This document shows positions 4,525-51,914 of a stretch of 64,000 nt of DNA, piece by piece. The translations under genes and the position numbers were made by a program. Each line of letters starts with the position of its first letter. Within the stretch, counting starts at the first letter, position 1. The DNA is from an uncultured Pelagibacteraceae bacterium (GTDB lineage: Bacteria > Pseudomonadota > Alphaproteobacteria > Pelagibacterales > Pelagibacteraceae): positions 25,078 through 89,077 of the forward strand of contig CACKYY010000002.1 of NCBI GenBank assembly GCA_902604525.1, read 5' to 3'. The notes under the pieces are model-generated. The model made no database searches. It had not been told where the DNA came from and saw only the letters and a list, made by a program, of their open reading frames with translations.

Positions 4525-4541
4525 TATGCGGTATTTGCATA
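4525..4541. promoter_or_regulatory. Dyad motif upstream of amtB, candidate nitrogen-response operator
   Basis: TATGCGGTATTTGCATA has 5-bp inverted arms (TATGC/GCATA) around 7 bases. It lies 74 bases before the amtB start. The site upstream of glnA (51895-51911) matches it at 13 of 17 positions at almost the same distance (77 bases). No regulator gene is in the window. The nitrogen role is inferred from the two genes sharing it. Confidence 0.5.
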
Positions 4542-4546
4542 TAGAA

Positions 4547-4582
4547 ACAGCCCTAACGTGTAATTTTTTACATTAGGGCTGT
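4547..4582 (-). terminator. Hairpin terminator of the HU gene
   Basis: On the minus strand ACAGCCCTAA pairs with TTAGGGCTGT (10 bp), extended by a TGTA/TACA pair beyond a 2-base bulge. It stands 11 bases after the HU stop. The following T run is short (TTCTAT), so termination may be partial. It separates HU from the amtB promoter region. Confidence 0.65.
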
Positions 4583-4593
4583 TAAGAAAAATG

Positions 4594-4869
4594 CTATTTA
4601 TTAAACACTTCTTTTAAAGCTTTTGCGGGTAAAAATTTTACCTTTTGAGAAGCAGCAATTTGAATTTGCTCACCTGTTCTAGGGTTTCTTCCAACTCTAG
4701 CTTTTCTTTTAGCTACTTTATAAGTACCAAATCCAGCAATTTTCACTGAATCATCCCCTTTTAAAGCATCTAAAATAGTATTAGTAATTGTATCAAATGT
4801 TCGCTCCGCATCAGCTTTGCTCAAGTTTAGTGAGCCTGAAAGCTTTGCAATTAGTTGTTTTTTGTTCAT
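4594..4869 (-). CDS. hup: HU-family DNA-binding protein
   Basis: A 91-residue histone-like protein that bends and compacts DNA as a dimer. It shows the complete HU fold: MNKKQLIAKLSG at the N-terminus, the dimerisation core GFGTYKVAKRKAR, then the beta-arm signature VGRNPRTGEQIQI with the DNA-intercalating proline, and a C-terminal helix KVKFLPAKALKEVFNK. Its length is exactly that of the family. It forms a single-gene unit with its own terminator. HU and IHF share the fold; the NPRTGE arm and basic C-terminus fit HU better. Confidence 0.95.
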   Translation of the reverse strand: MNKKQLIAKLSGSLNLSKADAERTFDTITNTILDALKGDDSVKIAGFGTYKVAKRKARVGRNPRTGEQIQIAASQKVKFLPAKALKEVFNK

Positions 4870-5026
4870 TTTAGCTCCGGTTTTATTGGTTAATATTCAT
4901 ACTTGTCATAAACGTTGATAAATCAAGCTTTTTTTTAGTGTTAAAAAATTCATATAACACAACATGTTGTAAAAATAGAAAAAAGTATTGAATTTACTTA
5001 CTTTTTTAAAGTTAAGGAAAATTTTA

Positions 5027-6139
5027 TTAACTAAATAAACCTAAATCTTTTAGATCATTAAAAGTTGTGAAAAACATTAATGATAGCAACAAAAACAAAC
5101 CGATTCGAAAAAAACCTTCTTGTGTTTTTTGCGACAAAGGACGGCCTAAAACCTTTTCAAATGCGTAAAACATTAAATGACCTCCATCAAGCATTGGTAT
5201 TGGAAATAAATTGATTAGACCTAGACTAATAGAGATATAAGCCATCATACTGATAAAAGCTAACACTCCAAAAGTTGCAACTTGACCAGAAATTTTAGCA
5301 ATTCTAATTGGACCACCAAGTTGAGAAGTATCTGCTTTTCCCAATATCATTCCACCAATATATTTCAATGATGATGTGCTTACATAATATACTTCATTAG
5401 CTGCGTGATATAATGCCTGTGCAGGGCCTAATTTTATATGATTAACCTCGTTATTATAAGCCCCAAGTTTTATTCCAACCATTCTTTTATTAATTTTATT
5501 TCCTAATCCATCCTCACCTTCAACAATATTAGGTTTAACTTTTAAGATTAACTCCTCATAAGATCGTTTAACTTTGAAATCAATAATGTCTCCTGTTGAC
5601 ATGGTAATAAATTTAGAGACCTCCATGATACTTTTAACTTTATTTCCATCTATTTCTAAAATCACATCTTGATTTTTAAGTCCTCCTATCATTGCTGGGC
5701 TATCTTTTTGTACCTGATTAATGACTGCTGGAGTAAAGTCTTTACCAACGAATATATATATTGAAAAAAATATGACTAAAGCCAACAAAAAATTTGCCAA
5801 AGGTCCCCCAAAAACTATTAAAACTCTTTGATACAAAGGTTTTAAAATAAATAACTTTTCTCTCTCTTCTTCGTTATATTTTTCAAGTATTTCTTGGTGG
5901 TCTGATTGAGAGTATACATTTCTATCACCGAAAAATTTTACATAACCCCCTAGTGGTATTGCGCATATCTTCCAACGAGTTCCATGTTTGTCATTCCAGC
6001 CAAATAATTCTTTACCAAATCCAATTGAAAAATCAGTGACTCCTACTCCATATTTTCTAGCAAAATAATAATGACCATATTCGTGAATGAATACCACTAC
6101 TAAAATTAGAACTAAAAACGGGATTATATATGTCAACAT
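5027..6139 (-). CDS. rseP: RIP metalloprotease RseP (site-2 protease)
   Basis: A 370-residue intramembrane zinc protease that cleaves anti-sigma factors or signal-peptide remnants in the inner membrane. The zinc motif HEYGH is at residues 19-23 in the first helix, followed by ARKYGV and GGYVKFFGD. One periplasmic PDZ-like domain spans about 130-210. The third metal-site motif NLFPIPMLDGGHL has its Asp at about 318. E. coli RseP has two PDZ domains and about 450 residues, so this is a compact one-PDZ form, usual for alphaproteobacteria. In many genomes rseP lies between cdsA/dxr and bamA, but here it stands alone. Confidence 0.93.
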   Translation of the reverse strand: MLTYIIPFLVLILVVVFIHEYGHYYFARKYGVGVTDFSIGFGKELFGWNDKHGTRWKICAIPLGGYVKFFGDRNVYSQSDHQEILEKYNEEEREKLFILKPLYQRVLIVFGGPLANFLLALVIFFSIYIFVGKDFTPAVINQVQKDSPAMIGGLKNQDVILEIDGNKVKSIMEVSKFITMSTGDIIDFKVKRSYEELILKVKPNIVEGEDGLGNKINKRMVGIKLGAYNNEVNHIKLGPAQALYHAANEVYYVSTSSLKYIGGMILGKADTSQLGGPIRIAKISGQVATFGVLAFISMMAYISISLGLINLFPIPMLDGGHLMFYAFEKVLGRPLSQKTQEGFFRIGLFLLLSLMFFTTFNDLKDLGLFS

Positions 6140-6264
6140 AAGCTAAATATATTAAAAATTAGCATTATAACAACCATGCATTCATCATTAATCCTGACAC
6201 TTTTTGTCCTTTCATCAGCTAAATTTGATTAAATAGTGATAATAATATAATCAACATTAAATAT

Positions 6265-6750
6265 ATGCCCTCTTTTGATGTAGTTAGTAAAATAAACCAC
6301 CAAGAATTTGATAACGCTCTGTCAAACTGTTTAAGAGAAATTAGTAACCGCTTCGATTTTAAAGGGTTACATATCTCTATAGAGCGAAAAGAAAATTTAA
6401 TTACAACTCTTGCCCCAGATGAATTGAAATTAAGGCAAGTTAATGAGTTATTGCAAACTCATTTAATCAGACGAAAAGTTGATCCAAGAGTACTTAATAT
6501 GAAAAGTTCAGAAAGCGCATCCGGAGGATCTATTAGACAATTAAGTGAATTAAAGGAGGGTATTAGTCAAGAAAATGCAAAAAAAGTAATTGCTGATATA
6601 AAAAAACTTAAACTAAAGATACAAATAAAAATTCAAGGAGATGAATTGAGAGTGGATGGTAAAAAGAAAGATGAACTTCAAGAAGCAATTAGTGCCATAA
6701 AATCTATTGATATTGGTCTTCCTATAGAATTTGTAAATTTTAGAGATTAA
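6265..6750 (+). CDS. yajQ: YajQ-family nucleotide-binding protein
   Basis: A 161-residue member of the YajQ/UPF0234 family, which binds nucleotides and in some bacteria cyclic di-GMP. The signature start MPSFDVVSKINHQEFDNALS, the NRFDFKG motif near residues 28-34 and the internal duplicate ending IGLPIEFVNFRD are all present, at the family's normal length. It is divergent from rseP across 125 bases, in which TTGATT and TATAAT (6225-6251, spacing 15) could form its promoter. The next gene follows after 86 bases. Confidence 0.92.
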   Translation: MPSFDVVSKINHQEFDNALSNCLREISNRFDFKGLHISIERKENLITTLAPDELKLRQVNELLQTHLIRRKVDPRVLNMKSSESASGGSIRQLSELKEGISQENAKKVIADIKKLKLKIQIKIQGDELRVDGKKKDELQEAISAIKSIDIGLPIEFVNFRD

Positions 6751-6836
6751 TCCTTGATTAAACTATTCATTGTATTTGGTTTAAAAAGATATAAGCATCC
6801 ATCATAAATACTTAATATATACCTTTTCCTATCCTA

Positions 6837-8303
6837 ATGAATTTCTCAGATTTACAAATTGAAAATAAGCTTAAAAAGTCAATTGAACTAGCTGATTTTA
6901 AAACTCCCACTCCAATTCAAAGTCAATCAATTCCAATCAGTCTTGAGGGTAGAGATATTTTAGGGACCGCACAAACTGGAACGGGTAAAACTTTAGCCTT
7001 TACCGTCCCAATGATTAATAAATTAATTAAAGATAAGCAGGCAATGGCATTAATTGTTTGTCCTACAAGAGAACTTGCAACACAGGTAATGGCAACCATT
7101 TTAAAATTAAATGTTAGAGAAATAGGAATTGGAAATGCTCTTTTAATTGGTGGTGAGAGCATGCAAAAGCAACTTAGAAAGTTAGGCAAACGTGCAAGAA
7201 TAATAGTTGGTACTCCTGGACGAATTAATGATCACTTAAACAGAAAAAGTTTAGATTTATCAAAAGTTAATTATTTAGTCTTAGATGAGACTGACCGTAT
7301 GCTTGATATGGGTTTTACTCCTCAAATAGAACAGATTTTAAATTTTATACCAAAAGAACATCAAACATTATTATTTTCAGCAACTCTACCAAATGATATT
7401 TTAAAAATATCTCAAAGGTATCTAAATAATCCAGAAAGAATATCTGTTGGATCTTTATCAGCCCCAATTGATAAAATTAAGCAAGAAACATTTGAGGTTT
7501 CGCAGGATAAAAAATATCATGAACTAATCAATCAACTTGTAGAGAGAAGTGGGTCCATCTTAGTATTTGTTAAAACTAAACATGGTGCAGATAAAATAGT
7601 TAAAAGACTTAAATATGATGGTCATAAAGCTGATGCTATTCATGGAAACTTAAGACAAAGTAAACGAGACAGAGTTATCAATGGATTTAGAAATGGACAC
7701 AGTCGTATCCTAATTGCAACCGATGTTGCAGCACGTGGGTTAGATATCCCAGTTATCAAACATGTTATTAATTACGATCTACCACAAGTTCCAGAAGATT
7801 ATGTTCATCGAATAGGACGAACCGGTAGAGCTGGTAAAGAAGGTTCTGCTTTAACCTTTTTAACACCAAGTGATCGATCCATGTGGAATTCTATAAGTAA
7901 ATTAATAGATCCAAATTACAAACCACGTCAAAGAGATAGAAATCAAAAAAAAAGTTTTAGGGGAGGTAAAAAAGGTAAGGCTACATTTAACAAAAAAAGA
8001 AAATTTAATGATAACAAAAAAGGTAGATTCAGAGATAAAAAGAAGTTCTTTAAGAACAATGAGGATAAAAAAACTAATTTTAAAGGAAAAAATAAATTTT
8101 TTAAAAAAGATGGAGATAAAAAATCAAAATTTAAGGACAAGAAAAAATCTTTTGGCTTTACCAATAATCCAAAATATTTTGGTAAAAAAACAGATGATGT
8201 AGTTGAAAAAGACAATAAAAGAACCTCTTTTAAAGGAAAAAAAAAATTCACAAAAAGACAAAGACCTAAAAAATTTTCATTTAAAAAGCATAAAAAGAAA
8301 TAA
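6837..8303 (+). CDS. DEAD-box RNA helicase (RhlE-like) with DETD box and lysine-rich tail
   Basis: A 488-residue ATP-dependent RNA helicase of superfamily 2, acting on structured RNA or ribosome assembly. The order is: Q motif FKTPTPIQ (21-28), Walker A AQTGTGKT (45-52), PTRELA (76-81), TPGR (126-129), motif II, SAT, then ARGLDIP and HRIGRTGRAG in the second domain. Motif II reads DETD (150-153) instead of DEAD; the acidic residues needed for Mg-ATP are kept. From about residue 362 the tail consists of Lys/Phe/Arg/Asp/Gly-rich repeats (GKKKF, KDKKK, FKGKNKFFKK), probably a flexible RNA-binding extension. The codon for the odd threonine is a clean ACT. Confidence 0.93.
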   Translation: MNFSDLQIENKLKKSIELADFKTPTPIQSQSIPISLEGRDILGTAQTGTGKTLAFTVPMINKLIKDKQAMALIVCPTRELATQVMATILKLNVREIGIGNALLIGGESMQKQLRKLGKRARIIVGTPGRINDHLNRKSLDLSKVNYLVLDETDRMLDMGFTPQIEQILNFIPKEHQTLLFSATLPNDILKISQRYLNNPERISVGSLSAPIDKIKQETFEVSQDKKYHELINQLVERSGSILVFVKTKHGADKIVKRLKYDGHKADAIHGNLRQSKRDRVINGFRNGHSRILIATDVAARGLDIPVIKHVINYDLPQVPEDYVHRIGRTGRAGKEGSALTFLTPSDRSMWNSISKLIDPNYKPRQRDRNQKKSFRGGKKGKATFNKKRKFNDNKKGRFRDKKKFFKNNEDKKTNFKGKNKFFKKDGDKKSKFKDKKKSFGFTNNPKYFGKKTDDVVEKDNKRTSFKGKKKFTKRQRPKKFSFKKHKKK

Positions 8304-8306
8304 GAT

Positions 8307-8933
8307 TTAATTAGAAATCTTTTGGATCAATGAGGCTGTATTGTTTGTGGGTTTATTTACATCCTTTGAAACCTTATGAAAAATAAGATCAGGAACTTTA
8401 CGTTCATTCAAAAAGGCTGAGCCCTGTAGCTCTAAATTTAAATAACGATTTACATCTGCGTGATTAAGGATTACAGGCTGACGGTGATGAATTTCTTTAA
8501 TATTTTCTTTTGCTTCTTCTGTAATTAAACAAAATTGGTCCTCTTCAAAAATACCAGCAAAATAAATTACATTACTATCTTTTCTAACAAAATAATGAGG
8601 AGTTTTTTCATTCTCTTCCCTCTTCCATTCATAAAAACCATCTGCAACAGCAACACATCGATGATTTTTAATCAGTTTTTTAAATGAAACCTTTTCATCA
8701 ATCGTTTCTAATCTTGCATTAATCAATGCTTTGAATTTTTTATTTTTTACCCAACTAGGCACTAATCCCCACTTTAAAGCCTCTAAAGTGTTACCATTTT
8801 TATATTTTTTTATAACTGGAAGTTTTTGATAAGGATGAGCGTTATAATTTTCTGTATCCTCAACTTGAATAGCAGATTTTACTAAAGAAGAAGTTTTAGT
8901 AACTGGATTTTTAACAACATACCTTCCGCACAT
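8307..8933 (-). CDS. SRAP/YedK-type abasic-site processing protein
   Basis: A 208-residue SOS-response-associated peptidase-domain protein. The family crosslinks to abasic sites in single-stranded DNA through Cys2, protecting the fork. MCGRYVV gives Cys2 directly after the initiator Met. The catalytic pocket signatures are NARLETIDEK (about 72-81), DGFYEWKRE with its Glu (about 98-106), and HHRQPVIL near 150. The ATG overlaps the stop of the upstream TPR gene (TAATG), so translation is probably coupled. It converges on the helicase gene with a 3-base gap. Confidence 0.93.
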   Translation of the reverse strand: MCGRYVVKNPVTKTSSLVKSAIQVEDTENYNAHPYQKLPVIKKYKNGNTLEALKWGLVPSWVKNKKFKALINARLETIDEKVSFKKLIKNHRCVAVADGFYEWKREENEKTPHYFVRKDSNVIYFAGIFEEDQFCLITEEAKENIKEIHHRQPVILNHADVNRYLNLELQGSAFLNERKVPDLIFHKVSKDVNKPTNNTASLIQKISN

Positions 8934-9481
8934 TATATTGATTGTTGTTTAATTAATTCTTCTATTTGTCTTATCATGATTTCCGGAGATTGCATTGATG
9001 GGTGTATCTCTTTTGCCTGCTGATAACTAAGAATTGCTTTTTCATAATTTTTTAATTGTATATTTACTAAACCTTGTCCTGCCAAAGCACCAAAATGTCT
9101 TTCTTCTATTGCTAAAACTTTATCAATATCATCTTGAGATTTTTTGAATTCTCCTATCAAATAAAAAACTGTTGCTCTTTTATTCCATGCTTCAGCCCAA
9201 TTTTGATCAAGATTTATAACCTCTGTAAAAATCTCTATTGCTTTACTTAGTTGTTGATTTCTTACAAACTGAGAGCCTTCCTCTAACCTTGCAGTAAGTT
9301 TTGCATCAGTTGGATGAGTACTCCAAATTTTCCATATTTCCTGTTCAACAATAGATGATACTTTTGACTTATTGGCCTTTAACTCATTGAATAATTGGTT
9401 AAGTCTTACATCTCTTTCATTTGAAAAGGAGCTCGTCTGAGAAAATAAATAAAATAAGAATATTAAAAAAAACCTTTTCAT
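8933..9481 (-). CDS. Secreted TPR-repeat protein
   Basis: A 182-residue protein with an N-terminal signal peptide (MKRFFLIFLFYLFSQTSSFS) and at least three tetratricopeptide units: around 77-100 (EGSQFVRNQQLSKAIEIFTEVINLDQ), 104-135 (AWNKRATVFYLIGEFKKSQDDIDKVL) and 138-170. It is probably periplasmic and acts as a protein-interaction scaffold. This short type is common in alphaproteobacteria. Its last base overlaps the SRAP gene start. Confidence 0.85.
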   Translation of the reverse strand: MKRFFLIFLFYLFSQTSSFSNERDVRLNQLFNELKANKSKVSSIVEQEIWKIWSTHPTDAKLTARLEEGSQFVRNQQLSKAIEIFTEVINLDQNWAEAWNKRATVFYLIGEFKKSQDDIDKVLAIEERHFGALAGQGLVNIQLKNYEKAILSYQQAKEIHPSMQSPEIMIRQIEELIKQQSI

Positions 9482-9521
9482 AGTTTGATATTATCAAAAA
9501 AGAGTTTTGGAGTCTTTGGTC

Positions 9522-9974
9522 TTAAGTGTCTTGGTTGTTTTTTTTACAACTATAAAATGAAATATCTTTCTCTTTTTTATCAGAGTTTATTTTTCGGGTA
9601 ATTTCATGGATCAATTCTCCAGTACTTCTAGTAAAGACTGCAGACTCAGAATAATTTCGTTCTTGATCAAAAGCTTGTATCAAAATTATATCTTTATTAG
9701 ATATTTTTACTTCCAAATTAATCTTATTAATAAATTTTGATAAATTTTTTATAACTAATATATCTGGATTTTTTGCTATTATTTTTAAACTTTCGATATT
9801 TTCTCTTTTAATTTGATCATTTGTAAAAGAAACAAAGTTATGTTCTGCGTTTTTAATAATAACTTTTTCAAACTTACAATTAAGATCTAAATCCGTTTTA
9901 ACTGAAATATTAATATTTTTTGCATAAACATTGCTAGTTAAAAAAAAGGTAATTATCAAAATAAAATATTTCAT
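9522..9974 (-). CDS. Hypothetical secreted protein
   Basis: A 150-residue protein with a clear signal peptide (MKYFILIITFFLTSNVYAKN). The mature part is rich in short beta-strand-like segments (NISVKTDLDLNCKFEKV, NLEVKISNKDIILIQAF) and has two cysteines (about 33 and 143) that could form a disulfide. I recognise no family. It sits 6 bases after the MBL-fold gene on the same strand and 40 bases before the TPR gene, so it probably belongs to the same transcript. Confidence 0.65.
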   Translation of the reverse strand: MKYFILIITFFLTSNVYAKNINISVKTDLDLNCKFEKVIIKNAEHNFVSFTNDQIKRENIESLKIIAKNPDILVIKNLSKFINKINLEVKISNKDIILIQAFDQERNYSESAVFTRSTGELIHEITRKINSDKKEKDISFYSCKKNNQDT

Positions 9975-9980
9975 AAAATA

Positions 9981-10979
9981 TTATTTTAAAATTTCATTTA
10001 ATGGTGTTATTTGGCCAATTTTAAAAATAAGCGCATCCTCTTTTTTGAAACCATATTTTTCCGCATTATCTTTAAATCGATCTCTTGGTTCCATAATTGG
10101 TTCTAACGATAATACAAAAGTACCCCAATGCATACCAATTACTTTTTTACTTTTTAAATCTCTAGAAATCTCAAGCGCCTCTTCAGGGCTAGTGTGATAA
10201 GATGATTTATCTTTATATGGAGTTAATGGATAAAAATTATACGCTCCGATATTTATAATATTAATATCTATTGGACCGTATTTTTCGCCAATCTCTTTAT
10301 AAATATTTCCAACTCCAGTATCACAGGCAAATAAAATTTTTTTTCCATCATATTCAATTAAAAAATTTCCCCATAAAGTTTTATTGGTATCTGTTAAACT
10401 ACGTTTAGACCAATGAACTGCTGGCAGAAATGTTATTTTCATTTTTTCATTAATGATGATTTCTTCATACCAATCCATTTCATTAACATCGCTGTATCCA
10501 TTTCTTTTAAAATACTTACCTAGTTTTAATGGAGCCATTACTTTGGTATTTTTGAAAGGGAATTTTCTGATTGTCATCATATCTTGATGATCATAATGAT
10601 TATGAGTTAGTAAAAAAATATCTACAGGAGGTATTTCTTTTAAATTTATAGCTGGTTCAGTAAATCTTTTAGGTCCAAAAATTAACGGACCTGCATTTTT
10701 AGAAAAAACAGGATCAGTTATAATTGTTGTATTCCCTAATTTTATCAAAAAAGTTGCGTGCCCTATCCATCCAATATAATCACCGTCTTTATGTTTTTTA
10801 ATATCAGCTAATACTTTTTCTTTATCTACAACATGATCTTTTGGAACAGTCATATTGAGTTTCTTTTTTTCTTTATTAAATACTTTAAAAGACCACCGAA
10901 AATTTTGATCAACTTTAGGGGAACCTAGAGGGTTTCTAAAAGTGCCGTCTGGTAAATGATGATAAGGTATTTTATCCAT
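9981..10979 (-). CDS. MBL-fold hydrolase, NAPE-PLD/UlaG-like
   Basis: A 332-residue metallo-beta-lactamase-fold enzyme. The track starts at a TTG; the ATG at 10979 (MDKIPYHHLPDG) is more likely. The binuclear metal motif HNHYDHQD lies near residues 124-131, with WIGHATFLIKLG before it and the downstream ligands AVHWSKRS, FACDTGVG and MHWGTF. The N-terminal FRNP and FKVF pattern matches NAPE-phospholipase-D-like hydrolases, which cleave phosphodiesters in N-acyl phospholipids. No signal peptide is seen. The substrate here is unknown; lipid phosphodiesters are the best guess. Confidence 0.85.
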   Translation of the reverse strand: MDKIPYHHLPDGTFRNPLGSPKVDQNFRWSFKVFNKEKKKLNMTVPKDHVVDKEKVLADIKKHKDGDYIGWIGHATFLIKLGNTTIITDPVFSKNAGPLIFGPKRFTEPAINLKEIPPVDIFLLTHNHYDHQDMMTIRKFPFKNTKVMAPLKLGKYFKRNGYSDVNEMDWYEEIIINEKMKITFLPAVHWSKRSLTDTNKTLWGNFLIEYDGKKILFACDTGVGNIYKEIGEKYGPIDINIINIGAYNFYPLTPYKDKSSYHTSPEEALEISRDLKSKKVIGMHWGTFVLSLEPIMEPRDRFKDNAEKYGFKKEDALIFKIGQITPLNEILK

Positions 10980-11036
10980 ATATAAATACAAAATTAATAG
11001 TTAATGATAAATTCATAAAATTATAAATTTTATTTT

Positions 11037-11651
11037 TTATTTATCTAAAATAGCAATAATACTTCTTTTAATATTTTCACTTATTTTTATTGTTCCTTGC
11101 TGGTTAGGATGTATCCCATCTTGTAGATTTAAACTTGGGTTAAGTGCCACACCCTCTAAAAGAAAAGGTATAAATTGTAAATTATGCTTCTTAGATAATT
11201 TTGGATAAATAGCATCAAAGTCTTTCTTATATTTTATTCCATGTGTTGTTGGAGCAATCATTCCAGCTAAAATTATTTCTATTTCTTTCTTTTTTGCAAT
11301 TTCTATTATTTGTTCTAAATTTTTTTTTGTTTCATTTGGTTGTATTCCTCTAAGCATATCATTTGCACCCATTCCTAAAATGATAAGATCTATATCTGGA
11401 TCTGATAAACTCCACTCCGCCCTATTCAATCCGCCTGAAGATGTACTCCCTGAAACACTTCCATTTATAACTTGAATATTGAATCCATCTTGTTTTAATT
11501 TATTCTCTAAAACCAACGATAAATGATGTTCTTTAGGTAAACCATAACCAGCCATTAAGCTGTCTCCAAATAATACGACCTTTTCTATTGCACTTGCATT
11601 TATGTGCACTAGAAAGATCAATAAAATTTTTATAAATAAAGTTTTATTCAT
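11037..11651 (-). CDS. tesA: GDSL-type arylesterase / acyl-CoA thioesterase I
   Basis: A 204-residue SGNH hydrolase with a signal peptide ([21 protein letters not shown]), acting in the periplasm on acyl esters or thioesters. Block I FGDSLMAGYGL holds the catalytic Ser (about 31), block II is NGSVSGSTS, block III GANDMLRG and block V DGIHPNQQG with the Asp-His pair. The track start at 11702 would put a basic, non-signal stretch in front, so ATG 11651 is preferred. That codon overlaps the start of the divergent ABC gene by two bases. E. coli has the same divergent pairing (tesA and ybbA-ybbP). Confidence 0.88.
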   Translation of the reverse strand: MNKTLFIKILLIFLVHINASAIEKVVLFGDSLMAGYGLPKEHHLSLVLENKLKQDGFNIQVINGSVSGSTSSGGLNRAEWSLSDPDIDLIILGMGANDMLRGIQPNETKKNLEQIIEIAKKKEIEIILAGMIAPTTHGIKYKKDFDAIYPKLSKKHNLQFIPFLLEGVALNPSLNLQDGIHPNQQGTIKISENIKRSIIAILDK

Positions 11652-12315
11652 GTCTGCACTTCTTAAATTAAAAAAAATAAATCTTAAATACCAAACTGGC
11701 AAAGATAATATCAGAGTTTTAAAGAATATAGATTTAAATATTAAGAAGAAAGAAACTGTTTCAGTTGTAGGTGAAAGTGGTTCTGGAAAAACTAGTTTAA
11801 TAATGCTTATTGGTGGATTAGAAAAGCCAACCTCTGGGAAAATTATTTTTCAAAATCAAGAAATTACAAGCCTTAATGAGGATGAAGTAGCTGAAATTAG
11901 AAAGAAAAATATTGGAATTGTATTTCAATCTTTTTATCTAATCCCAAATTATACTGCAGTTGAAAATGTTGCCTTAACACTTGAGCTAAATAATTTTAAA
12001 AATCCTGAAAAAGAAGCAAAAATTTTATTAGATCGTTTTGGTTTAAAACATCGTTTTAATAATCTTCCAAGTCAACTATCTGGTGGGGAGCAGCAAAGAG
12101 TAGCTATAGCAAGAGCAATCGCTATGAAACCTGAATTGATTTTAGCTGATGAACCAACTGGTAATTTAGATACTGAAAACTCTACATTGATTTCAAATAT
12201 ATTATTTAAATATGTGAAAGAAGAAGGTTCTTCTTTAATTATGGTCACTCATGACCCCAAACTTGCTGATAAAGCAGAAAGAAAAATTAAAATTAAAGAT
12301 GGAAAAATCAAATAA
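11650..12315 (+). CDS. ybbA: ABC transporter ATPase, YbbA/LolD-like
   Basis: A 221-residue ATPase of the MacB/LolD group. Walker A is GESGSGKTS, the Q-loop [16 protein letters not shown], the signature [14 protein letters not shown] and Walker [13 protein letters not shown], whose NLD extension is typical of the family. The track begins at 11602, but [17 protein letters not shown] at 11650 is the natural start. It overlaps the permease gene by 17 bases. The esterase-divergent context points to the YbbA-YbbP mechanotransmission-type system rather than lipoprotein sorting. Confidence 0.9.
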
Positions 12316-14833: not shown

Positions 14834-14850
14834 TAAAAAAAATAATAGAT

Positions 14851-15120: not shown

Positions 15121-15125
15121 TATCC

Positions 15126-15290: not shown

Positions 15291-15360
15291 TATTTATAAT
15301 TACTATAAACCTTTTGAATTTCTTTGCAAAATTTACCCTATCTGTTAAGCATTTTCGAAA

Positions 15361-18189: not shown

Positions 18190-18256
18190 TTAAACAAGTT
18201 ATATAGAGACAATTTGTGGGATTACAATAAATTTTAATTTGTTGTAATTTTTGCTT

Positions 18257-37759: not shown

Positions 37760-37760
37760 T

Positions 37761-38510: not shown

Positions 38511-38532
38511 AAGTTACGAAATTATAAAAAAA

Positions 38533-40710: not shown

Positions 40711-40717
40711 TAAAAAA

Positions 40718-42562: not shown

Positions 42563-42650
42563 AAAATTTGTTTATTTTTTTTTTCGTATGGTGTTTATAT
42601 TTGGGTATATTTATAAATTAAAAAACCTAACTAAGTAAACCAAAAAAACT

Positions 42651-44093: not shown

Positions 44094-44094
44094 A

Positions 44095-44886
44095 ATGAGA
44101 AAAAATAAAATTAAACAAATGATGAATGAGGGAAAATCAGTCATCAATGGATGGCTTCAAATTCCAAGTACAGTTTCAGCAGAGGTTATGGCACATCAGG
44201 GATGGGATTCTCTTACAATTGATATGCAACATGGATTAGTCGATTACACTAACGCACTTCCAATGCTTCAAACTATATCTACTACCGATGTTACACCTCT
44301 TGCACGTGTAAACTGGAATGAACCTGGTCAAATTATGAAAATTCTAGACTCGGGTTGTTACGGCATAATTTGTCCAATGGTAAGCAATCGCAGTGAAGCC
44401 GAAAAATTTGTTAAAGCGTGCATGTACCCTCCTAATGGATATAGAAGTTTTGGTCCAGTTAGAGGTCTAATTTATGGTGGTGGAGATTATGCAGATCATG
44501 CAAATGATGAAATGCTTAAATTTGCAATGATTGAAACAAAAGAGTCTTTGGAAAAATTAGACGAAATAATGTCTACTCCAGGTTTGGATGGAATTTATAT
44601 TGGTCCTGCTGATTTAAGTCTGGCGATCGGTGAAGCCCCAGGTTTTGACAGACCCGCAGAGACAAAGGCATATTCTGAAATTTTAAGAATACTTGAGCAT
44701 GCAAAAAAAAATAATATTTTTTCTGGTATTCACAATGGTAGCCCAGAGTATGCTCTTAAAATGATTGATAAAGGTTTTAATTTTGTAACTATCGGTGCAG
44801 ATCAAAGAGCTATGAGCTCAGGCGCAAAAGCGATAGTAGATAAAATGAAAGGTTCTTTAAAAAAAGAAGAGTCGAGTACTTACTGA
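44095..44886 (+). CDS. HpcH/HpaI-type class II aldolase
   Basis: A 263-residue metal-dependent aldolase that splits 2-keto-3-deoxy or 4-hydroxy-2-oxo acids into pyruvate and an aldehyde. IDMQHGLVDY (catalytic His, about 45), LARVNWNEPGQIMKILDSGCYGI (substrate Arg), MIETKESLEKLDEI (metal Glu) and GIYIGPADLSLAIG (metal Asp) are all present. Relatives cleave 2-keto-3-deoxy-L-rhamnonate (RhmA) or 4-hydroxy-2-oxoheptanedioate. The adjacent aldehyde dehydrogenase suggests lactaldehyde or glycolaldehyde as product. Confidence 0.9.
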   Translation: MRKNKIKQMMNEGKSVINGWLQIPSTVSAEVMAHQGWDSLTIDMQHGLVDYTNALPMLQTISTTDVTPLARVNWNEPGQIMKILDSGCYGIICPMVSNRSEAEKFVKACMYPPNGYRSFGPVRGLIYGGGDYADHANDEMLKFAMIETKESLEKLDEIMSTPGLDGIYIGPADLSLAIGEAPGFDRPAETKAYSEILRILEHAKKNNIFSGIHNGSPEYALKMIDKGFNFVTIGADQRAMSSGAKAIVDKMKGSLKKEESSTY

Positions 44887-44917
44887 TAAATAAACTTTAC
44901 AAAAATCACTAAACTAA

Positions 44918-45874
44918 ATGAAAAAAATTCTTATCATTCAGCCTATACATCAGGAAGGTATAAAGTTATTACAAAGTAATTCTGAGTACGAATTTGAAGT
45001 TGTAGAAAATATTGAAATAAACTTTTTAAAAAATAAAATTAAAGACTGTGATGGTGTTTCAATTAGAACTGCTAAACTAAGTGGGGAAGTAATTGAAGCT
45101 GCTAATAATCTTAAAATAATCTCAAGACATGGTGTTGGATATGATAATATTGATTTAAACGTCTCAAAAAAAAAAAATATCACTTTGGCAATTACATCAA
45201 CTGCAAATGCTGTAGCTGTAGCTGAACATGTAATGTTCATGATTTTGAATATTTCTAAAAGAGGTAATATGTACGACGATACTGTTAAAAGTGGGAAATT
45301 TAATGAAAGAAATAAACTACCTAAAACTGTAGAGCTTTGGAATAAAAATATTTTAATTGCAGGATTTGGTAGAATAGGACAAGCCTTGATTAAGAGGTGC
45401 TTAGGTTTTGAAATGAATGTTTTTGTTTATGATCCTTATGTGTCTAAAGAATTTATTGAAAGACAAGGTGGTAAAAAAGTAGAAGATTTAAGTGAAGCTT
45501 CAAAAAATATGGATGCAGTATCACTTCACATCCCTTTAAATAATGAAACTAAAAATATAATTAATTATGAATTACTTAAATCTATGAAAAAAAATTGTAT
45601 TATTATTAATGCTGCAAGAGGAGGTATTGTAAACGAAATTGATTTAGATCGAGCTTTAAATGAAAATTTAATCTTTGGTGCTGGTTTGGATGTATTTGAA
45701 ACTGAACCTCCTGCTGAAAATAATGCTCTTTTAAAAAATAAGAAAGTTTTTTTAAGTCCACATACTGCAGCTTTCACAGAGGAATGTATGACAAGAATGG
45801 GTAAAGAAACTATTCAAAATATATTTGATTTTTTTGAAGGTAGTTTAGAAAATTCAAAAAAAGTAAAACTATAA
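44918..45874 (+). CDS. D-2-hydroxyacid dehydrogenase (phosphoglycerate dehydrogenase-like)
   Basis: A 318-residue NAD-dependent dehydrogenase. AGFGRIGQALIKR (about 148-160) and VYDPYV bind NAD; NAARGGIVNE (Arg), DVFETEPP (Glu) and LSPHTAAFTEE (His) make the catalytic set. It lacks the ACT domain of long SerA enzymes. It follows the aldolase by 31 bases and converges on iolE with a 6-base overlap. It probably reduces or oxidises a small 2-keto/2-hydroxy acid of the island's pathway. Confidence 0.9.
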   Translation: MKKILIIQPIHQEGIKLLQSNSEYEFEVVENIEINFLKNKIKDCDGVSIRTAKLSGEVIEAANNLKIISRHGVGYDNIDLNVSKKKNITLAITSTANAVAVAEHVMFMILNISKRGNMYDDTVKSGKFNERNKLPKTVELWNKNILIAGFGRIGQALIKRCLGFEMNVFVYDPYVSKEFIERQGGKKVEDLSEASKNMDAVSLHIPLNNETKNIINYELLKSMKKNCIIINAARGGIVNEIDLDRALNENLIFGAGLDVFETEPPAENNALLKNKKVFLSPHTAAFTEECMTRMGKETIQNIFDFFEGSLENSKKVKL

Positions 45875-46768
45875 AGCTATTTCTAGACCAATATCTGCAC
45901 AAACCTCAGATAAATATTTGAAACCTTTTTTTGCATATTCTAAAGGATTTGCTTTAGCTGGATCTTGCTCTGCTTCTACAACTAACCAGCCTTTATAATC
46001 AATATTTTTTAAATATTTTAGTAAAGGCTTATAATCAATGCATCCGTCTCCTGGTACAGTAAAAGCTCCCTCTAAAAATGCTTTTCTAAAACTCCAATCT
46101 TTTTGGAGAGATTTATTTAAAATATCTTCTCTCATATCCTTACAGTGAATATGAATAATTCTGTCTTTATAGTCTTCTACTATTTTAACAGAATTACCTT
46201 TAGCAAATAACATGTGACCAGTATCCAGTATTAATTTGACTTGGTCACTTGTGTTATCTAACAGTCTTTTTGTGTCGTCTTCTGTTTCAATCACTGTGCC
46301 CATGTGATGATGATACGCTAAAGGCATATCTTGATCTTCCAAATATTTTCCCATTTCGGAAATTTTTTTACAATATTCATTCCATTCATCTTTGTTCATT
46401 TGTGGTCTACTGGATAAAGGTCTATTTGGTTCGCCAGCAATAGAGTCTGATACTTCAGCAAATACGATACATGGTGCTTTACAATCTTGAAAAAGTTTTA
46501 ATTGTTCTTGAACTGATATAATTTCATCCTTTACAGAATTTTTTCTCAAATTTGCACTGTACCAGCCTGAACATAACTTTAAGTTATATTTTTGTAACAA
46601 TGGAATGAGTTCCTCTGATTTTTTTGGAAATTTCCCTCCAGACTCTATTCCAGAAAAACCTGCCTCACTTGCTTCAGATAAACACTGCTCCAAAGGTGTG
46701 TCACCACCAAGTTCAGGCATGTCATCATTGCTCCATGCTATTGGCGCTATTCCTAATTTTACTGACAT
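45869..46768 (-). CDS. iolE: myo-Inosose-2 dehydratase IolE
   Basis: A 299-residue TIM-barrel enzyme of the xylose-isomerase-like AP endonuclease fold. It removes water from scyllo-inosose to give the dione used by IolD. GIAPIAWSNDDMPELGGDTPLEQCLSEASEAGFSGIE at the N-terminus is the hallmark, with metal ligands in AYHHHMGTVIE, LILDTGHMLFA, HIHCKDM and VVEAEQDPAKANP. It lies alone on the minus strand between plus-strand genes, away from iolD by 3.3 kb. Confidence 0.94.
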   Translation of the reverse strand: MSVKLGIAPIAWSNDDMPELGGDTPLEQCLSEASEAGFSGIESGGKFPKKSEELIPLLQKYNLKLCSGWYSANLRKNSVKDEIISVQEQLKLFQDCKAPCIVFAEVSDSIAGEPNRPLSSRPQMNKDEWNEYCKKISEMGKYLEDQDMPLAYHHHMGTVIETEDDTKRLLDNTSDQVKLILDTGHMLFAKGNSVKIVEDYKDRIIHIHCKDMREDILNKSLQKDWSFRKAFLEGAFTVPGDGCIDYKPLLKYLKNIDYKGWLVVEAEQDPAKANPLEYAKKGFKYLSEVCADIGLEIAL

Positions 46769-46807
46769 AATACTTGTATTTGTTATGATATATAAAATTA
46801 TAATCTA

Positions 46808-47944
46808 ATGAATACAAATAAATTATCCTTAGGAATTGTTGGTGGAGGTCCAAAATCTTGGATTGGTCATGTCCATCGAATTTCTGCAAGATTTGATGAC
46901 AAGTACAAAATAGTAGCTGGTGTATTCTCGAGAAATTCAAAATTATCGATTAGCTTTGGAAAAACTTTAGGTATCTCCAAAGATAGATGCTACTCAAACT
47001 TTAAAGAGATGGCTTTGAAAGAGTCAAAAAGAGATGATGGCATTCAAGTAGTCTCAATAATGACACCTCCATCAAGTCATCAAATTATTGCTGAAAAATT
47101 TATTGAAAAAAATATCAATATTATTTCAGATAAACCATTTGCTGGTAATCTAGACCAAGCCCAAAAACTTTATAAAAAAATAAAATCAAACAAAAACATT
47201 AAATATGCTTTGACTCATAATTACTCAGCTTACCCAATGGTTAGAGAGGCTAAAGTTTTAATAGAAAAAGGTAAAATTGGTAAAATTGAATATGTGAATG
47301 TTGAATATATTCAAGATTGGTCTGATGGAACAAAAATTAATGTAAAAAATGCCAAAAAAATACTAAAATGGAAAATAGATAATAAAATAGTTGGTGCATC
47401 TGCCGTTCTTAATGAAATTGGAACCCATGCTTATCATTTAGCTACATATATTTCAGGACTAAAAGGAGAAAAAATTTTTGCTGACATTAAACAAATTTCA
47501 AAAAAAATTAAAATGGATGATAGCGCACAAGTAATGATTAATTTTACAAATGGTGCAAAAGGTATGTTTTGGACGAGCGTCATGGCTAAAGGTGGAGTTT
47601 ATGGTCTCAGAATTAGAATATTTGGATCTAAAGGAAGCTTAGAGTGGGTTCAAAATGACCCTAATTATCTAAAATTAAATCCAGACAGAGGTGCAGTAAG
47701 ATACCTAGAGAGAGGTTTTCACAATGCTGAGCTTTCAAAAAAATTTTCCAGAATAAAGTTTGGACACCCAGAAGGATACTTAGATGCATTTGCAAATATT
47801 TATAGAGAATTTGCAGATTCTTTAAAAAATAGATCAAAAAAAAGATATTTTTATCCAAATGAGGATGAAGGATTAGAAACAGCAAAATTTATAAATGCTT
47901 GTAAAGTTTCATCAAAAAATAAAAGATGGGTCAAAATCAAATAA
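46808..47944 (+). CDS. Gfo/Idh/MocA-family oxidoreductase
   Basis: A 378-residue sugar dehydrogenase: GIVGGGPKSWIGHVH at the N-terminus, SDKPFAGN (catalytic Lys, about 113), and NEIGTHAYHLATYISG (active-site histidines). The longer GGGPKSWIG cofactor loop is seen in a subgroup often found in inositol and sugar clusters. It overlaps the IolG-like gene by 19 bases. It might act on scyllo-inositol, or a deoxy sugar. Confidence 0.87.
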   Translation: MNTNKLSLGIVGGGPKSWIGHVHRISARFDDKYKIVAGVFSRNSKLSISFGKTLGISKDRCYSNFKEMALKESKRDDGIQVVSIMTPPSSHQIIAEKFIEKNINIISDKPFAGNLDQAQKLYKKIKSNKNIKYALTHNYSAYPMVREAKVLIEKGKIGKIEYVNVEYIQDWSDGTKINVKNAKKILKWKIDNKIVGASAVLNEIGTHAYHLATYISGLKGEKIFADIKQISKKIKMDDSAQVMINFTNGAKGMFWTSVMAKGGVYGLRIRIFGSKGSLEWVQNDPNYLKLNPDRGAVRYLERGFHNAELSKKFSRIKFGHPEGYLDAFANIYREFADSLKNRSKKRYFYPNEDEGLETAKFINACKVSSKNKRWVKIK

Positions 47945-48939
47945 ATATTGCATTACTTGGTCTTGGAAGAATAGGCCAAATGCATGCCTTAAATTTAACT
48001 AATCACCCAGAATTCAATTTAAAATATACATTTGATATTGATAAAAATTTAAATAAGAAATTAGGAAAAAAATATAAGTCAATTCCTATTAATAATCCCA
48101 ATGTTGCATTCAATGATAAGAGCATTAAATGTATTTTTATAGCCACAAGTACTAAGACCCATTTAAATTATATTGATAAAGCAGTAAGAAATAAAAAAGT
48201 TGTATTCTGTGAAAAGCCATTAGATTTAAGTTTAAAAAAAATTAATGAATACAAAAAAAAACTTTCTAAATTTAATCCTAAGATTCAAATTGGTTTTAAT
48301 AGAAGATATGATGCAGGACACAATTCTTTGAAAAAGAATCTTGTTAATGGGAAAATTGGAAAATTAGAAAAAATAATAATTACTAGTCGGGACCCTGCGC
48401 CCCCTTCAATTGATTACTTGAGAAATTCTGGTGGTATTTTTAAAGATATGATGATCCACGACTTTGATTTAGCAAGATACTATGTGGGCTCTGATGAATT
48501 TAAGCATTTATTTGCAACAGGTGAATACTTTAAAGAAAAAAAATTTAAAAAAGTAAAAGATTTAGAATTAGCTACAGTGGTAATGAAAACAAGGAAAGGT
48601 GTCCAGTGTATAATAACAAATTCTAGACATTGTAGTTTTGGCTATGATCAAAGAGTTGAGTTATTTGGAAGTAAAGGGATGGTAATTTCTGATAATCAAA
48701 GAGATTTAGAAACAACATCCTATTTTAAAAATTCAACAGGTAGTAAACGATCTTTTAAAAATTTTTTTATCGAGAGATATTCAGAGGCATTTAAAAACCA
48801 ATTAAGTGACTTAGCAAGATTTTGTAAAAAAAACATTAAACCACGGGCAAATTTTGAAGATGGAAGAATGTCAGTGATATTGGCTGAAACAGCAAAAAAA
48901 TCTTTAAAAACAAAAAAATTTGTGCTGATTAAATTTTAA
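47926..48939 (+). CDS. iolG: Inositol 2-dehydrogenase-like (IolG) oxidoreductase
   Basis: A 337-residue Gfo/Idh/MocA enzyme. LLGLGRIGQMHALNLT (NAD loop), FCEKPLDLS (Lys near 95), FNRRYDAGH and DMMIHDFDLARYYVG (about 165-180, Asp/His active site) match inositol 2-dehydrogenases, which oxidise myo-inositol to scyllo-inosose, the IolE substrate. Together with IolE and IolD it gives the first three steps. It is the best iolG candidate of the three Gfo/Idh genes here. Confidence 0.85.
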   Translation: MGQNQINIALLGLGRIGQMHALNLTNHPEFNLKYTFDIDKNLNKKLGKKYKSIPINNPNVAFNDKSIKCIFIATSTKTHLNYIDKAVRNKKVVFCEKPLDLSLKKINEYKKKLSKFNPKIQIGFNRRYDAGHNSLKKNLVNGKIGKLEKIIITSRDPAPPSIDYLRNSGGIFKDMMIHDFDLARYYVGSDEFKHLFATGEYFKEKKFKKVKDLELATVVMKTRKGVQCIITNSRHCSFGYDQRVELFGSKGMVISDNQRDLETTSYFKNSTGSKRSFKNFFIERYSEAFKNQLSDLARFCKKNIKPRANFEDGRMSVILAETAKKSLKTKKFVLIKF

Positions 48940-48984
48940 ACCGTCACATTGATTTTATAGATTTATAATATAATTAATTTAGCT

Positions 48985-49575
48985 ATGAGAAATATTAAGC
49001 CATTTGGTCCCTCAATTGGAAAAACAAAAATATCTAAAAGGTTTATAAATAAACTAAATGAGGAATTTGATAAAAAATCAAATAATAAAAAAATTGATTA
49101 TAGTTCAAAATTAGCTAGTCAAATAAAAAATGAAATAAAGATTTCAAATAATTTTATAAAAAAATATTTATTTAAAGAGTTAAGAATAAATATCAAAAAA
49201 TTTTTAGCCAATGAACAAATTAAAAATATAAAAGAAGTAAAAATTCTTAATCTTTGGGTTGTTAGACAGTTTAAGGGTGAGTACAACCCTATCCATTATC
49301 ATACTGGCGATTTGTCTGGAGTTGGATATTTAACTTTGCCAAAAAATATGACAAAAAACAATTTAGTTAAAAATAAAAAACTTAAAACCAATGGAACAAT
49401 TGACTTTATAAATGGACAAAAAGCATTTCTTAGTAATAGTATTTATAATCTAATTCCAAAAATTGGAGACTTAATAATATTTCCAAACTATCTGATGCAT
49501 ACTGCATATCCATTTAACATAAATGGAGAAAGACGATCATTTTCTTTTAATGTAAAAATTATTTTTAAAAAATAA
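48985..49575 (+). CDS. Putative 2OG-Fe(II) oxygenase-like protein
   Basis: A 196-residue protein. NLWVVRQFKGEYNPIHYHTG (about 90-110) followed by DLSGVGYLTLP, then GDLIIFPNYLMHTAYPF and ERRSFSFNV near the end, give the His, His and 2OG-binding Arg pattern of small dioxygenases of the TIGR02466 type, known in marine bacteria and cyanophages. The HxH start of the motif is what that group has. The N-terminus is lysine-rich. It is followed without a gap by the methyltransferase gene. The substrate is unknown. Confidence 0.68.
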   Translation: MRNIKPFGPSIGKTKISKRFINKLNEEFDKKSNNKKIDYSSKLASQIKNEIKISNNFIKKYLFKELRINIKKFLANEQIKNIKEVKILNLWVVRQFKGEYNPIHYHTGDLSGVGYLTLPKNMTKNNLVKNKKLKTNGTIDFINGQKAFLSNSIYNLIPKIGDLIIFPNYLMHTAYPFNINGERRSFSFNVKIIFKK

Positions 49576-50493
49576 ATGGATACTGATTTTTTTAAAAATA
49601 TTAGAATTTTGGATGGCGGTATGGGTCAACAGCTATTAGCCAAAGGATTAATCTCGAAAGGCACATTATGGTCCGCTAGTGCTAATTTAGATAAAAAATT
49701 TCATGATCTGGTTGTTGACGTACACTTATCATTTATAAATGCTGGATCTGAGGTGATACTTACCAATACCTTTTCTGCGAGAAAAATTAGATTAATACAA
49801 AATAAAGTTGAAAAAGATTTTGTATATATAAATGAACAAGCTTGTTTATTATGTATTAAAGCAAAGGAAAAATCTGGAAAAGATGTTTTAATTGCTGGTA
49901 GCTTACCTTGTCAAAATGATACTTATGTAGAAGATCAAAGAGATAGCAAAGAATTAGAAAAAGCTTTTTATGAACAAGCTGAGGTTATCGCTCCCTTTGT
50001 AGATTTTTTTTATTTAGATGTTGTTTCAAGTGGAAGAGAAATAGACATAGCATCAAATGTTGCGGTCAAATTGAATAAACCTGTTCTTTTAGGTATTCAT
50101 GTTAAAAAAAATAACTTACTCCCCTCGGATGAAACTATTACTGAAGTCTTTAATAAATATAGAAGTAATAATTGGCTAGGAGTAATAACAGCATGCGTTT
50201 CTCCAAAAATTGCTGAGAAGTGCACCTCTGAAATTAAAAAGTTAGATATCCCGTTTGGATTTAAAGCCAACCTTTGGAAAGTAGAAGAGCCAACTCCAGT
50301 TCAAACTTTTAATAAGGCTAAACCTGATGAAATAGGTACTAATCCGAACGTTTCGCTTGGGAAAAGAGACAACAATTCAGCTAAAAAATTCTATGATTTT
50401 TCGAAAAGACTTGTTGAACAAGGGGCAACAATTCTCGGTGGATGTTGCGAAACAACACCAGAGGACATTAGAGAAATTGCTAAATTAAGATAA
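49576..50493 (+). CDS. Homocysteine S-methyltransferase-family protein
   Basis: A 305-residue zinc methyltransferase barrel. ILDGGMGQQLLAKG begins the protein, ITACVSPK (about 211) supplies the first zinc cysteine and GGCCETTPEDI (about 290) the last two. It makes methionine from homocysteine with a methyl donor such as S-methylmethionine, or another methylated compound. The start follows directly on the previous stop (TAAATG), leaving no room for a SAM riboswitch. It converges on the EamA gene with a 9-base overlap. Confidence 0.88.
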   Translation: MDTDFFKNIRILDGGMGQQLLAKGLISKGTLWSASANLDKKFHDLVVDVHLSFINAGSEVILTNTFSARKIRLIQNKVEKDFVYINEQACLLCIKAKEKSGKDVLIAGSLPCQNDTYVEDQRDSKELEKAFYEQAEVIAPFVDFFYLDVVSSGREIDIASNVAVKLNKPVLLGIHVKKNNLLPSDETITEVFNKYRSNNWLGVITACVSPKIAEKCTSEIKKLDIPFGFKANLWKVEEPTPVQTFNKAKPDEIGTNPNVSLGKRDNNSAKKFYDFSKRLVEQGATILGGCCETTPEDIREIAKLR

Positions 50494-51372
50494 TTTTTTT
50501 CTATCAGCCTTTCGAACAAAATAAATACCTATACAAACTGCAGTCAAAGAAATTAAGACTTTAATTGTTATTAATTCTTTTAAGAATATGTATCCTAGAA
50601 TTGTTCCAAAAATTGGTATTAAATATGATACTTGAGATTGAAAAATCAAACCATTATCTTTTAGTATTTTAAACCTTAATAGCCACGCAATTCCTGTTGG
50701 AACAATACCCAGATAAATTACAGATATTAATGAGTCTGTTCTTGGCACTACCTGCCACGGTTGTTCAATAAATGATACCAATGGTATTAAAATAATTGTT
50801 GCCCAGATTAATATCGAACCTGTAACATTTTCATTTTTTTTCTTACTAATTTTTAAAGTTAATACACCACCAATAACATAACATGTTGAACCCAACAAAA
50901 TTAACAAAGCTGAAGTGAAATTATTTTGATCAATTAAAAGATTGTCTGAAAATAAAAAAATTATTCCAGAAAAACCGATCAAAATTCCAAACGTTTTAAC
51001 TAAATTAAATTTTTCATTTTTCGTATAAAAATGACCTAGTATAGTAGAACTTAGTGGTGTTGTTGACATTAAGATTGCAGCGAGATTACTTTGAACAGAT
51101 TTTACTCCATAGGCAATTAGAAAGAATGGTGCAACCAAATTTATAAAACCAATCATAGCAAACCAATGCCAATCTTTAGAAAAAGCCTCAATTTTTATTT
51201 TTTTATAGTAACAAAGAAGTAGAACTGGAATTGCTCCAAAAAATACTCGAAGGAAAGCTATTGTAACTGGACCAAATGAATAGGTTGCGATTTTTATATT
51301 AAAAAATGCAGATGCCCAAATTAAAGACAATAAGGTTAATAAAGTATAATCTATTAATTTTGGATGTCTCAT
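50485..51372 (-). CDS. EamA/DMT-family transporter
   Basis: A 295-residue permease with ten helices in two EamA repeats (about 8-140 and 150-290). LLSLIWASAFFNIKIA, AFLRVFFGAIPVLLLC and GIVPTGIAWLLRFKIL are typical. Such proteins export amino acids or other metabolites; the substrate is not readable. It overlaps the YbaK-type gene by 4 bases. Confidence 0.88.
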   Translation of the reverse strand: MRHPKLIDYTLLTLLSLIWASAFFNIKIATYSFGPVTIAFLRVFFGAIPVLLLCYYKKIKIEAFSKDWHWFAMIGFINLVAPFFLIAYGVKSVQSNLAAILMSTTPLSSTILGHFYTKNEKFNLVKTFGILIGFSGIIFLFSDNLLIDQNNFTSALLILLGSTCYVIGGVLTLKISKKKNENVTGSILIWATIILIPLVSFIEQPWQVVPRTDSLISVIYLGIVPTGIAWLLRFKILKDNGLIFQSQVSYLIPIFGTILGYIFLKELITIKVLISLTAVCIGIYFVRKADRKKLS

Positions 51373-51851
51373 TCTGTTAAATCATCAACTTCTGAATTAG
51401 TTAATTTTTTTAGTTCAAAGAAGGTAATTCCAAAAACTGCATTTGGATGTCCTGCTGCAGCAAAAACTTTTGAAAATCTCTCTAAATGTTTATCCATATA
51501 TACTTTTGTATTTACTAAATGACCTATTGGAGATACGCCTCCTATTGTATAACCAGTAATTTGCTTAACCTCTTCGGGACTTGCCATTGACACATCTTTT
51601 TCACTTAATTTTTTTTTCAACTTATTTAAAGAGCATCTTTTGTCTCCCGATACTAAACAAAGACAAAATTTATTGCCTAATTTAAAAAGTAAGCTTTTTA
51701 CAATTGCACCAACATTACAACCTAAGGCTGTAGCAGCATCATTTGCTGTTCTTGCAGTTTGTTCTAAAATAATAACATTAAGATTTGGATCAAAGTCTTT
51801 AAGAATTTTCTTTGCTCTTTTAACTGGTTCTTTATCTAAAATGGAATTCAC
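51369..51851 (-). CDS. YbaK/EbsC-type aminoacyl-tRNA deacylase
   Basis: A 160-residue editing-domain protein that hydrolyses wrongly charged tRNA (Cys-tRNA-Pro, Ala-tRNA-Pro or similar). VGAIVKSLLFKLG with the catalytic Lys (about 49) and YTIGGVSPIGHLVNTKVYMD (GxxSP loop, about 100) are conserved. The start is GTG (51851), since no ATG lies upstream of the domain. The EamA gene follows with a 4-base overlap. Confidence 0.9.
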   Translation of the reverse strand: MNSILDKEPVKRAKKILKDFDPNLNVIILEQTARTANDAATALGCNVGAIVKSLLFKLGNKFCLCLVSGDKRCSLNKLKKKLSEKDVSMASPEEVKQITGYTIGGVSPIGHLVNTKVYMDKHLERFSKVFAAAGHPNAVFGITFFELKKLTNSEVDDLTE

Positions 51852-51891
51852 TTATTTATTCGTATGATTAATAATATTGATTAAATACACT

Positions 51892-51914
51892 ACTTATGTG
51901 AAAATTGCATAAGT
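51892..51914. promoter_or_regulatory. Dyad motif upstream of glnA, candidate nitrogen-response operator
   Basis: ACTTATG, nine bases, CATAAGT: perfect 7-bp arms. Its inner 17 bases TATGTGAAAATTGCATA match the amtB site (4525-4541) at 13 of 17 positions. It ends 74 bases before the glnA ATG, and the core ends 77 bases before. A TATAAG box at 51939-51944 puts the dyad near -48 of a possible start, a usual activator position. Confidence 0.5.

Follow-up and report, generated by a model that had tools for sequence, protein, structure and literature searches.

How do SAR11 bacteria, which are among the most abundant bacteria in the ocean and a major surface-ocean sink for ammonium, control the genes with which they take up and assimilate it? 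They are described as the first case of a nitrogen response independent of PII among free-living alphaproteobacteria, and we know of no operator for it. The question is raised anew by a 64,000-nucleotide stretch of DNA (the window; contig CACKYY010000002.1) from an uncultured SAR11 bacterium of the family Pelagibacteraceae, whose assembly amounts to 1.07 Mb and is 82% complete. In the window, amtB, which encodes an ammonium transporter, and glnA, which encodes glutamine synthetase, are each preceded by a 17-base inverted repeat, or dyad. Judging from comparison of sequences among relatives, this dyad is very probably the site of a nitrogen regulator.

Is the likeness between the two dyads more than coincidence? 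The original prediction placed TATGCGGTATTTGCATA at 4525-4541, ending 74 bases before the amtB ATG (4450, minus strand), and TATGTGAAAATTGCATA at 51895-51911, ending 77 bases before the glnA ATG (51989); letters, coordinates and distances are all correct. Both sites are inverted repeats, each with 10 symmetric positions out of 17, and the glnA copy does reach perfect 7-bp arms (ACTTATG...CATAAGT). The claimed identity of 13 in 17 positions stands for the letters as written, and drops to 12 in 17 when both sites are oriented with their genes. A caution that some chance similarity is expected in AT-rich DNA was well placed: among 2016 pairings of window upstream regions judged by the same rules, 40 (2%) have dyads that are no less alike and lie at comparable distances. 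From the window genome alone, the likeness between amtB and glnA does not exceed chance.

If the likeness were only a product of base composition, it should not persist among relatives. By protein searches, we collected amtB and glnA with their flanks from 148 genomes of the family, and compared 30 amtB and 30 glnA upstream regions within the genus of the window genome; because the compared sequences are related by descent, the counts given here are not independent events. A dyad like [TC]ATGCAAAWACTGCATA precedes amtB in 30 of 30 regions, ending 71-75 bases before the ATG, and one like TATGTAAAAAATGCATA precedes glnA, again in 30 of 30, ending 74-81 bases before it. Other genera of Pelagibacteraceae (labelled g2 to g12) have copies as well: at amtB in g2, g4 (CTTGCAAAAACTGCATA) and g7, and at glnA in g2 (AATGTAAAAARTGCATA) and g4 (TATGTATWAAWTGCATA). 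The g7 amtB loci L088 and L090 carry two dyads 27 bases apart, an arrangement compatible with two bound dimers. Named Pelagibacter amtB loci, which were collected independently, have the dyad 72-76 bases before the ATG. The expectation that its position is conserved in related strains thus holds within the genus, in several other genera and in independent named genomes. Further away, g9 and g12 have a degenerate or displaced amtB copy, another family within the order (f2) has the dyad neither at amtB nor at glnA, and nothing comparable was found at amtB among the non-Pelagibacteraceae alphaproteobacteria of the named set, many of which have PII just upstream.

A regulator's site should also be rare before unrelated genes. 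When 12 whole genomes were scanned with the pattern TATGYN6TGCATA, matches were found at amtB in 12 of 12, at glnA in 10 of 12, and in eight further places, each confined to a single genome; the reversed pattern, used as a control, gave no match in the same genomes. The exact form TATGCAAN3TTGCATA with two mismatches allowed was too loose to inform. We also scanned a complete 1.2-Mb relative (G003) end to end with a profile of the sites. There the dyad profile scores 24.5 bits at amtB and 23.3 at glnA, and 11.2 at the next intergenic position; G003's own sites are among those that built the profile, and the untrained pattern search in 12 genomes agrees with it. The third and fourth best matches to this profile (628414 and 346999) fall within coding sequences, and we set them aside. 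We accept the dyad as real because it is conserved across relatives and nearly absent elsewhere in the 12 genomes, and the same conservation and specificity refute chance similarity, to which we give practically no weight despite the 2% of window pairs that match equally well. The proposal that the shared site is a candidate operator for a nitrogen regulator has therefore survived both tests put to it, since the dyad is also not equally common before unrelated genes.

The next-best intergenic profile matches led to a third copy that the original prediction had overlooked, about 197 bases after glnA. It stands before a small, unannotated open reading frame (ORF) convergent with glnA. An ORF of this kind (54-56 residues) is found by pattern in 26 of 30 same-genus glnA loci, with the dyad 18-20 bases before its ATG, and in 26 of 26 its operator aligns with that of glnA in a single register, TATGYN6YGCAWNNNTGATAT. 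With a three-site profile, the three sites take ranks 1 to 3 in G003 (glnA 31.1, amtB 29.2, small ORF 23.7), followed by 16.1 for the next intergenic match and 15.9 for the best match in a coding region. Together, the scans show that these putative operators are nearly exclusive to amtB, glnA and the small ORF.

Does the small ORF encode a protein? Changes among its relatives fall mostly in third codon positions (4257, compared with 1918 in first and 1525 in second positions), and codon differences are synonymous in 2965 cases and non-synonymous in 2527. Because of these counts, the comparisons indicate that the ORF is a real protein under purifying selection. The predicted isoelectric point (pI) is about 10 across relatives. 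No match was found in Pfam or NCBIfam, and no significant one in PDB, libraries that may not contain glutamine synthetase inhibitors. Relatives of 62-66 residues occupy the same place in g2, g3, g6, g10 and one g4 genome; those of g2 and of the g4 genome directly follow an iron-sulphur protein gene and have no dyad, so that nitrogen control of the small ORF may be peculiar to the window genus.

What would a protein bound to the dyad do to transcription? We assigned -35 and -10 elements from consensus and conservation, and counted them in distinct sequences (27 for amtB, 26 for glnA). At amtB, a putative -35 stands at a fixed distance from the dyad (Table 1), and a TATAA-like -10 follows 42-44 bases past the dyad in 26 of 27 sequences. 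At glnA, the distance between dyad and ATG varies by 7 bases (71-81 bases overall for the two genes), whereas that between dyad and extended -10 hexamer stays at 44. The original prediction had stressed, beside the symmetry, an equal distance to the start codon; that distance varies, and the constant distance to the promoter is the stronger geometric argument. If the start lies some 12 bases beyond the first -10 base, the dyad is centred near -64 in both genes, the usual place of an activator that touches polymerase from upstream, so that the putative operators of amtB and glnA are in activator position. The amtB promoter should lie at or downstream of its operator, because an earlier start would fall within the terminator-like hairpin of the preceding HU gene (the fold of 4451-4585 has z = -4.4). 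A published amt start of strain HTCC7211 (1226344) seemed to lie upstream of the dyad, and was assigned to a second amt paralogue, because the hupA coordinates in the published start table fit a genome (G031) in which the hupA-linked amtB is elsewhere, at 1127718-1129016; we infer that G031 is HTCC7211. The published start is a highly expressed one; its gene, near 1226344 on contig C1 of G031, lies beside a glutamate-synthase-like domain match.

The terminator also bears on whether the dyad works in RNA, as a hairpin of the 5' untranslated region or a fragment of a riboswitch. A weak 5-bp hairpin is possible, and riboswitches are in use in SAR11, but an amtB-specific transcript containing the dyad would need to start inside the HU terminator. 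Moreover, the arms show no compensatory changes (the sequence is preserved, and pairs 1/17 and 6/12 may be mismatched) and Rfam finds no match in the window, which is why we regard the dyad as a DNA site and an RNA element as very improbable. The hupA-amtB spacer was covered by a survey of structured RNAs in Candidatus Pelagibacter ubique, in which amtB appears only in the table of spacers (PMC2704228).

Activation at glnA meets one difficulty. A second -10-like TGNTA adjoins the dyad there, and would make the dyad repressor-like at this gene. The operator extends into this sequence (AGTGTTAT in the window genome, GGTG[AT]TAT in relatives), and positions 51914-51922 hold an invariant TG[AT]TAT adjoining the dyad at offset 5. 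One could picture a repressor that works under plentiful nitrogen, covers the abutting -10 (TGNTAT) at glnA and at the small ORF, and is released by limitation: the TGNTA at offset 5 does not vary in 26 of 26 glnA sequences, and the small-ORF -10-like sequence likewise lies 5-8 bases past its dyad in relatives. This picture does not extend to amtB, which has no -10 adjoining its dyad and has conserved -35 and -10 elements 20 and 42-44 bases downstream, the latter at a spacing that matches the glnA -10 at 44. The adjacent TGATAT may also be a third half-site of the operator, as g5 glnA has TATGC-N7-GCATA at this place. We consider a repressor of this kind unlikely. At the small ORF itself, the operator lies against the -10, in the position of a repressor, and binding there should therefore repress.

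Which protein could bind? The claim that SAR11 lacks the usual PII/NtrBC control holds for this genus: PII is absent from same-genus genomes, sigma-54 gave no hit above the cut-off in any of 22 genomes, and NtrX is the sole NtrC-family protein, being the single PF00158 protein per genome in 36 of 40 same-genus genomes, including every single-contig genome. Neither GlnD nor GlnE was recognised among the 780-1100-residue proteins of G003, which we identified in part from their first residues and in part with Pfam. The NtrX of the window genome scores 544.8 bits against the NtrX model NF051870, below the 600-bit cut-off and far above ntrC. Its recognition helix, VGMERSALHRKLK, is identical in Brucella NtrX (5m7n), and SAR11 NtrX, like that of Brucella, lacks the GAFTGA sigma-54 loop. 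NtrX sites have been reported as CAAN2-5TTG, with a footprint of CAAN3-5TTG at Brucella ntrY and CAAN2-5TTG in Sinorhizobium (PMC9223101); the other proposed site, from Rhodobacter, is GCAN9TGC (PMC7240162). The idealised SAR11 core TATG-CAANNNTTG-CATA contains CAAN3TTG, and the S. meliloti ftsZ1 site CAATGGCTG resembles the SAR11 amtB core CAAAAACTG. NtrX is the best candidate binder, plausible but unproven, with about an even chance of being the right one.

Several observations weigh against NtrX, or against the regulon as a whole. Each core has only one perfect half, the other being degenerate (CAA-N3-CTG at amtB; TGA-N3-TTG or TAA-N3-ATG at glnA), and the SAR11 spacing is GCA-N5-TGC, compared with GCAN9TGC in the Rhodobacter model. 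The SAR11 site is also longer and stricter than other NtrX operators, a 17-bp TATGCA-N5-TGCATA, and the genes that it serves are amtB and glnA, not those of the cell cycle or the envelope. The complete genome G003 has no site at gltB, where one might be expected for gltBD, nor at ntrYX (upstream of ntrY), although NtrX autoregulates elsewhere. NtrX is present in g9 and g12, genera without a clear amtB dyad, and among 40 same-genus genomes there are four in which the dyad is present and NtrX was not detected, all four being fragmented assemblies. The same operator and regulon might instead be served by another regulator, such as a one-component factor, RegA, PhoB or OmpR. This would account for the departure of one half of each dyad from published NtrX sites and for the lack of a site at ntrYX, and a pattern search gave no usable list of one-component regulators; but NtrX is the only NtrC-type protein and nearly universal in the family, its recognition helix is that of Brucella, and, the reported SAR11 two-component systems being four (NtrYX, PhoRB, EnvZ/OmpR and RegBA), the remaining response-regulator systems are only the last three (PMC13198564). 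Another binder is a serious possibility, if not one we would bet on. Absent from the window genus, PII does occur in g5 and g12, in part of g9 and in a single g2 genome. With the degenerate or displaced amtB dyads of g9 and g12, this distribution suggests that the amtB operator goes together with PII loss.

The explanation we favour, with a probability of roughly 0.6 as a whole, is that a single transcription factor serves a very small Pelagibacteraceae nitrogen regulon consisting of amtB and glnA, which in the window genus also takes in the 56-residue ORF. A dimer would bind TATGCA-N5-TGCATA; at amtB and glnA the factor, placed near -64, would recruit ordinary sigma-70 RNA polymerase in a class-I-like manner under nitrogen scarcity, and at the small ORF it would repress. 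Less certainly, the factor may be NtrX phosphorylated by NtrY. We infer the response to nitrogen from what the genes encode and against the background of a 2013 study of nitrogen limitation in Candidatus P. ubique.

How does such a regulon compare with known ones? The NtrC/sigma-54 regulon (enteric and rhizobial glnA, glnK-amtB) has the same target genes and a dyad upstream of the promoter; unlike it, the genus here lacks PII, sigma-54 and NtrC, its promoter elements are of sigma-70 type, and its site is GCA-N5-TGC, not GCA-N9-TGC. In cyanobacteria, NtcA activates glnA and amt1 and represses gifA and gifB, which encode small proteins that inactivate glutamine synthetase. The likeness lies in sites in activator position at glnA and the ammonium transporter gene and in repressor position at a small basic protein gene; the NtcA operator differs (GTAN8TAC), and the small ORF shows no family match or homology to IF7/IF17. 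Rhizobia likewise have a small protein gene, gstI, beside a glutamine synthetase gene, glnII, with nitrogen-regulator sites; gstI is reportedly divergent from glnII and NtrC-controlled (a finding ascribed to Spinosa in 2000), whereas the SAR11 small ORF is convergent with glnA. By analogy, it is conceivable, though we think it improbable, that SAR11 swapped the lost PII/NtrBC for a three-gene circuit. One factor, NtrX or other, would activate amtB and glnA and repress the small basic protein; this protein would act as a hitherto unreported inhibitor, either of glutamine synthetase or of its synthesis, and would do the job of PII-controlled adenylylation, like cyanobacterial IF7 or rhizobial GstI. 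The small protein is at any rate a new candidate regulator of glutamine synthetase.

Nitrogen-responsive operators are known as a kind; apparently new are this site, its class of promoter, the regulon of three members and the small protein. A literature search, which misses most subscription papers and the 2013 study, returned no report of the operator or the small ORF. One genome with the amtB dyad (G024; TATGCAATCACTGCATA at 791922-791938) is taken to be that of strain HTCC1062, because the published hupA-amtB spacer, 791867-792012 (PMC2704228), abuts its amtB at 792013. The dyad would thus be present in a cultured strain open to bench work, and the site, the promoter geometry and the three targets make the question of who senses nitrogen in SAR11 experimentally addressable.

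Table 1. Features of the amtB and glnA loci, in window coordinates
Feature	Position	Strand	Remarks
amtB, ammonium transporter, 433 residues	3149..4450	-	Pfam PF00909, E=1.4e-97; NCBIfam TIGR03644 (marine-subtype ammonium transporter), above cut-off
amtB putative -10, TATAAA	4475..4480	-	44 bases after dyad in window genome
amtB putative -35, TTAGTT	4499..4504	-	starts 20 bases after dyad in 27/27 distinct sequences
amtB putative operator	4525..4541	-	TATGCAAATACCGCATA in gene direction; genus consensus [TC]ATGCAAAWACTGCATA
Intrinsic-terminator-like hairpin ending HU gene	4546..4583	-	directly upstream of amtB operator
HU-type DNA-binding protein gene	4594..4869	-	upstream of amtB; Pfam PF00216
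glnA putative operator	51895..51919	+	dyad 51895-51911 and conserved extension to 51919
glnA possible second -10, or third operator half-site	51917..51922	+	abuts dyad; TGNTA in 26/26
glnA putative extended -10, TGCTAATTA	51953..51961	+	TGNTA; hexamer exactly 44 bases after dyad in 26/26
glnA, type I glutamine synthetase, 468 residues	51989..53395	+	Pfam PF00120/PF03951; TIGR00653 above cut-off
Small ORF, unannotated, 56 residues	53403..53573	-	basic, pI 9.7; convergent with glnA
Third putative operator	53593..53618	-	TATGCAAATTATGCAAATCTGGTATG on + strand; dyad ends 19 bases before small-ORF ATG

Two further observations concern other amtB genes. A contig labelled as gammaproteobacterium TMED78 (L277) encodes an AmtB that is 71% identical and has a sigma-54-like TGGCACAGATACTGC upstream. 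At the f2 amtB loci (L365-L378), the place of the dyad is taken by a different element, TTGTCA-N2-TTGGCA, which is highly conserved, lies roughly 60-90 bases upstream of the ATG and may be the counterpart operator of that family.

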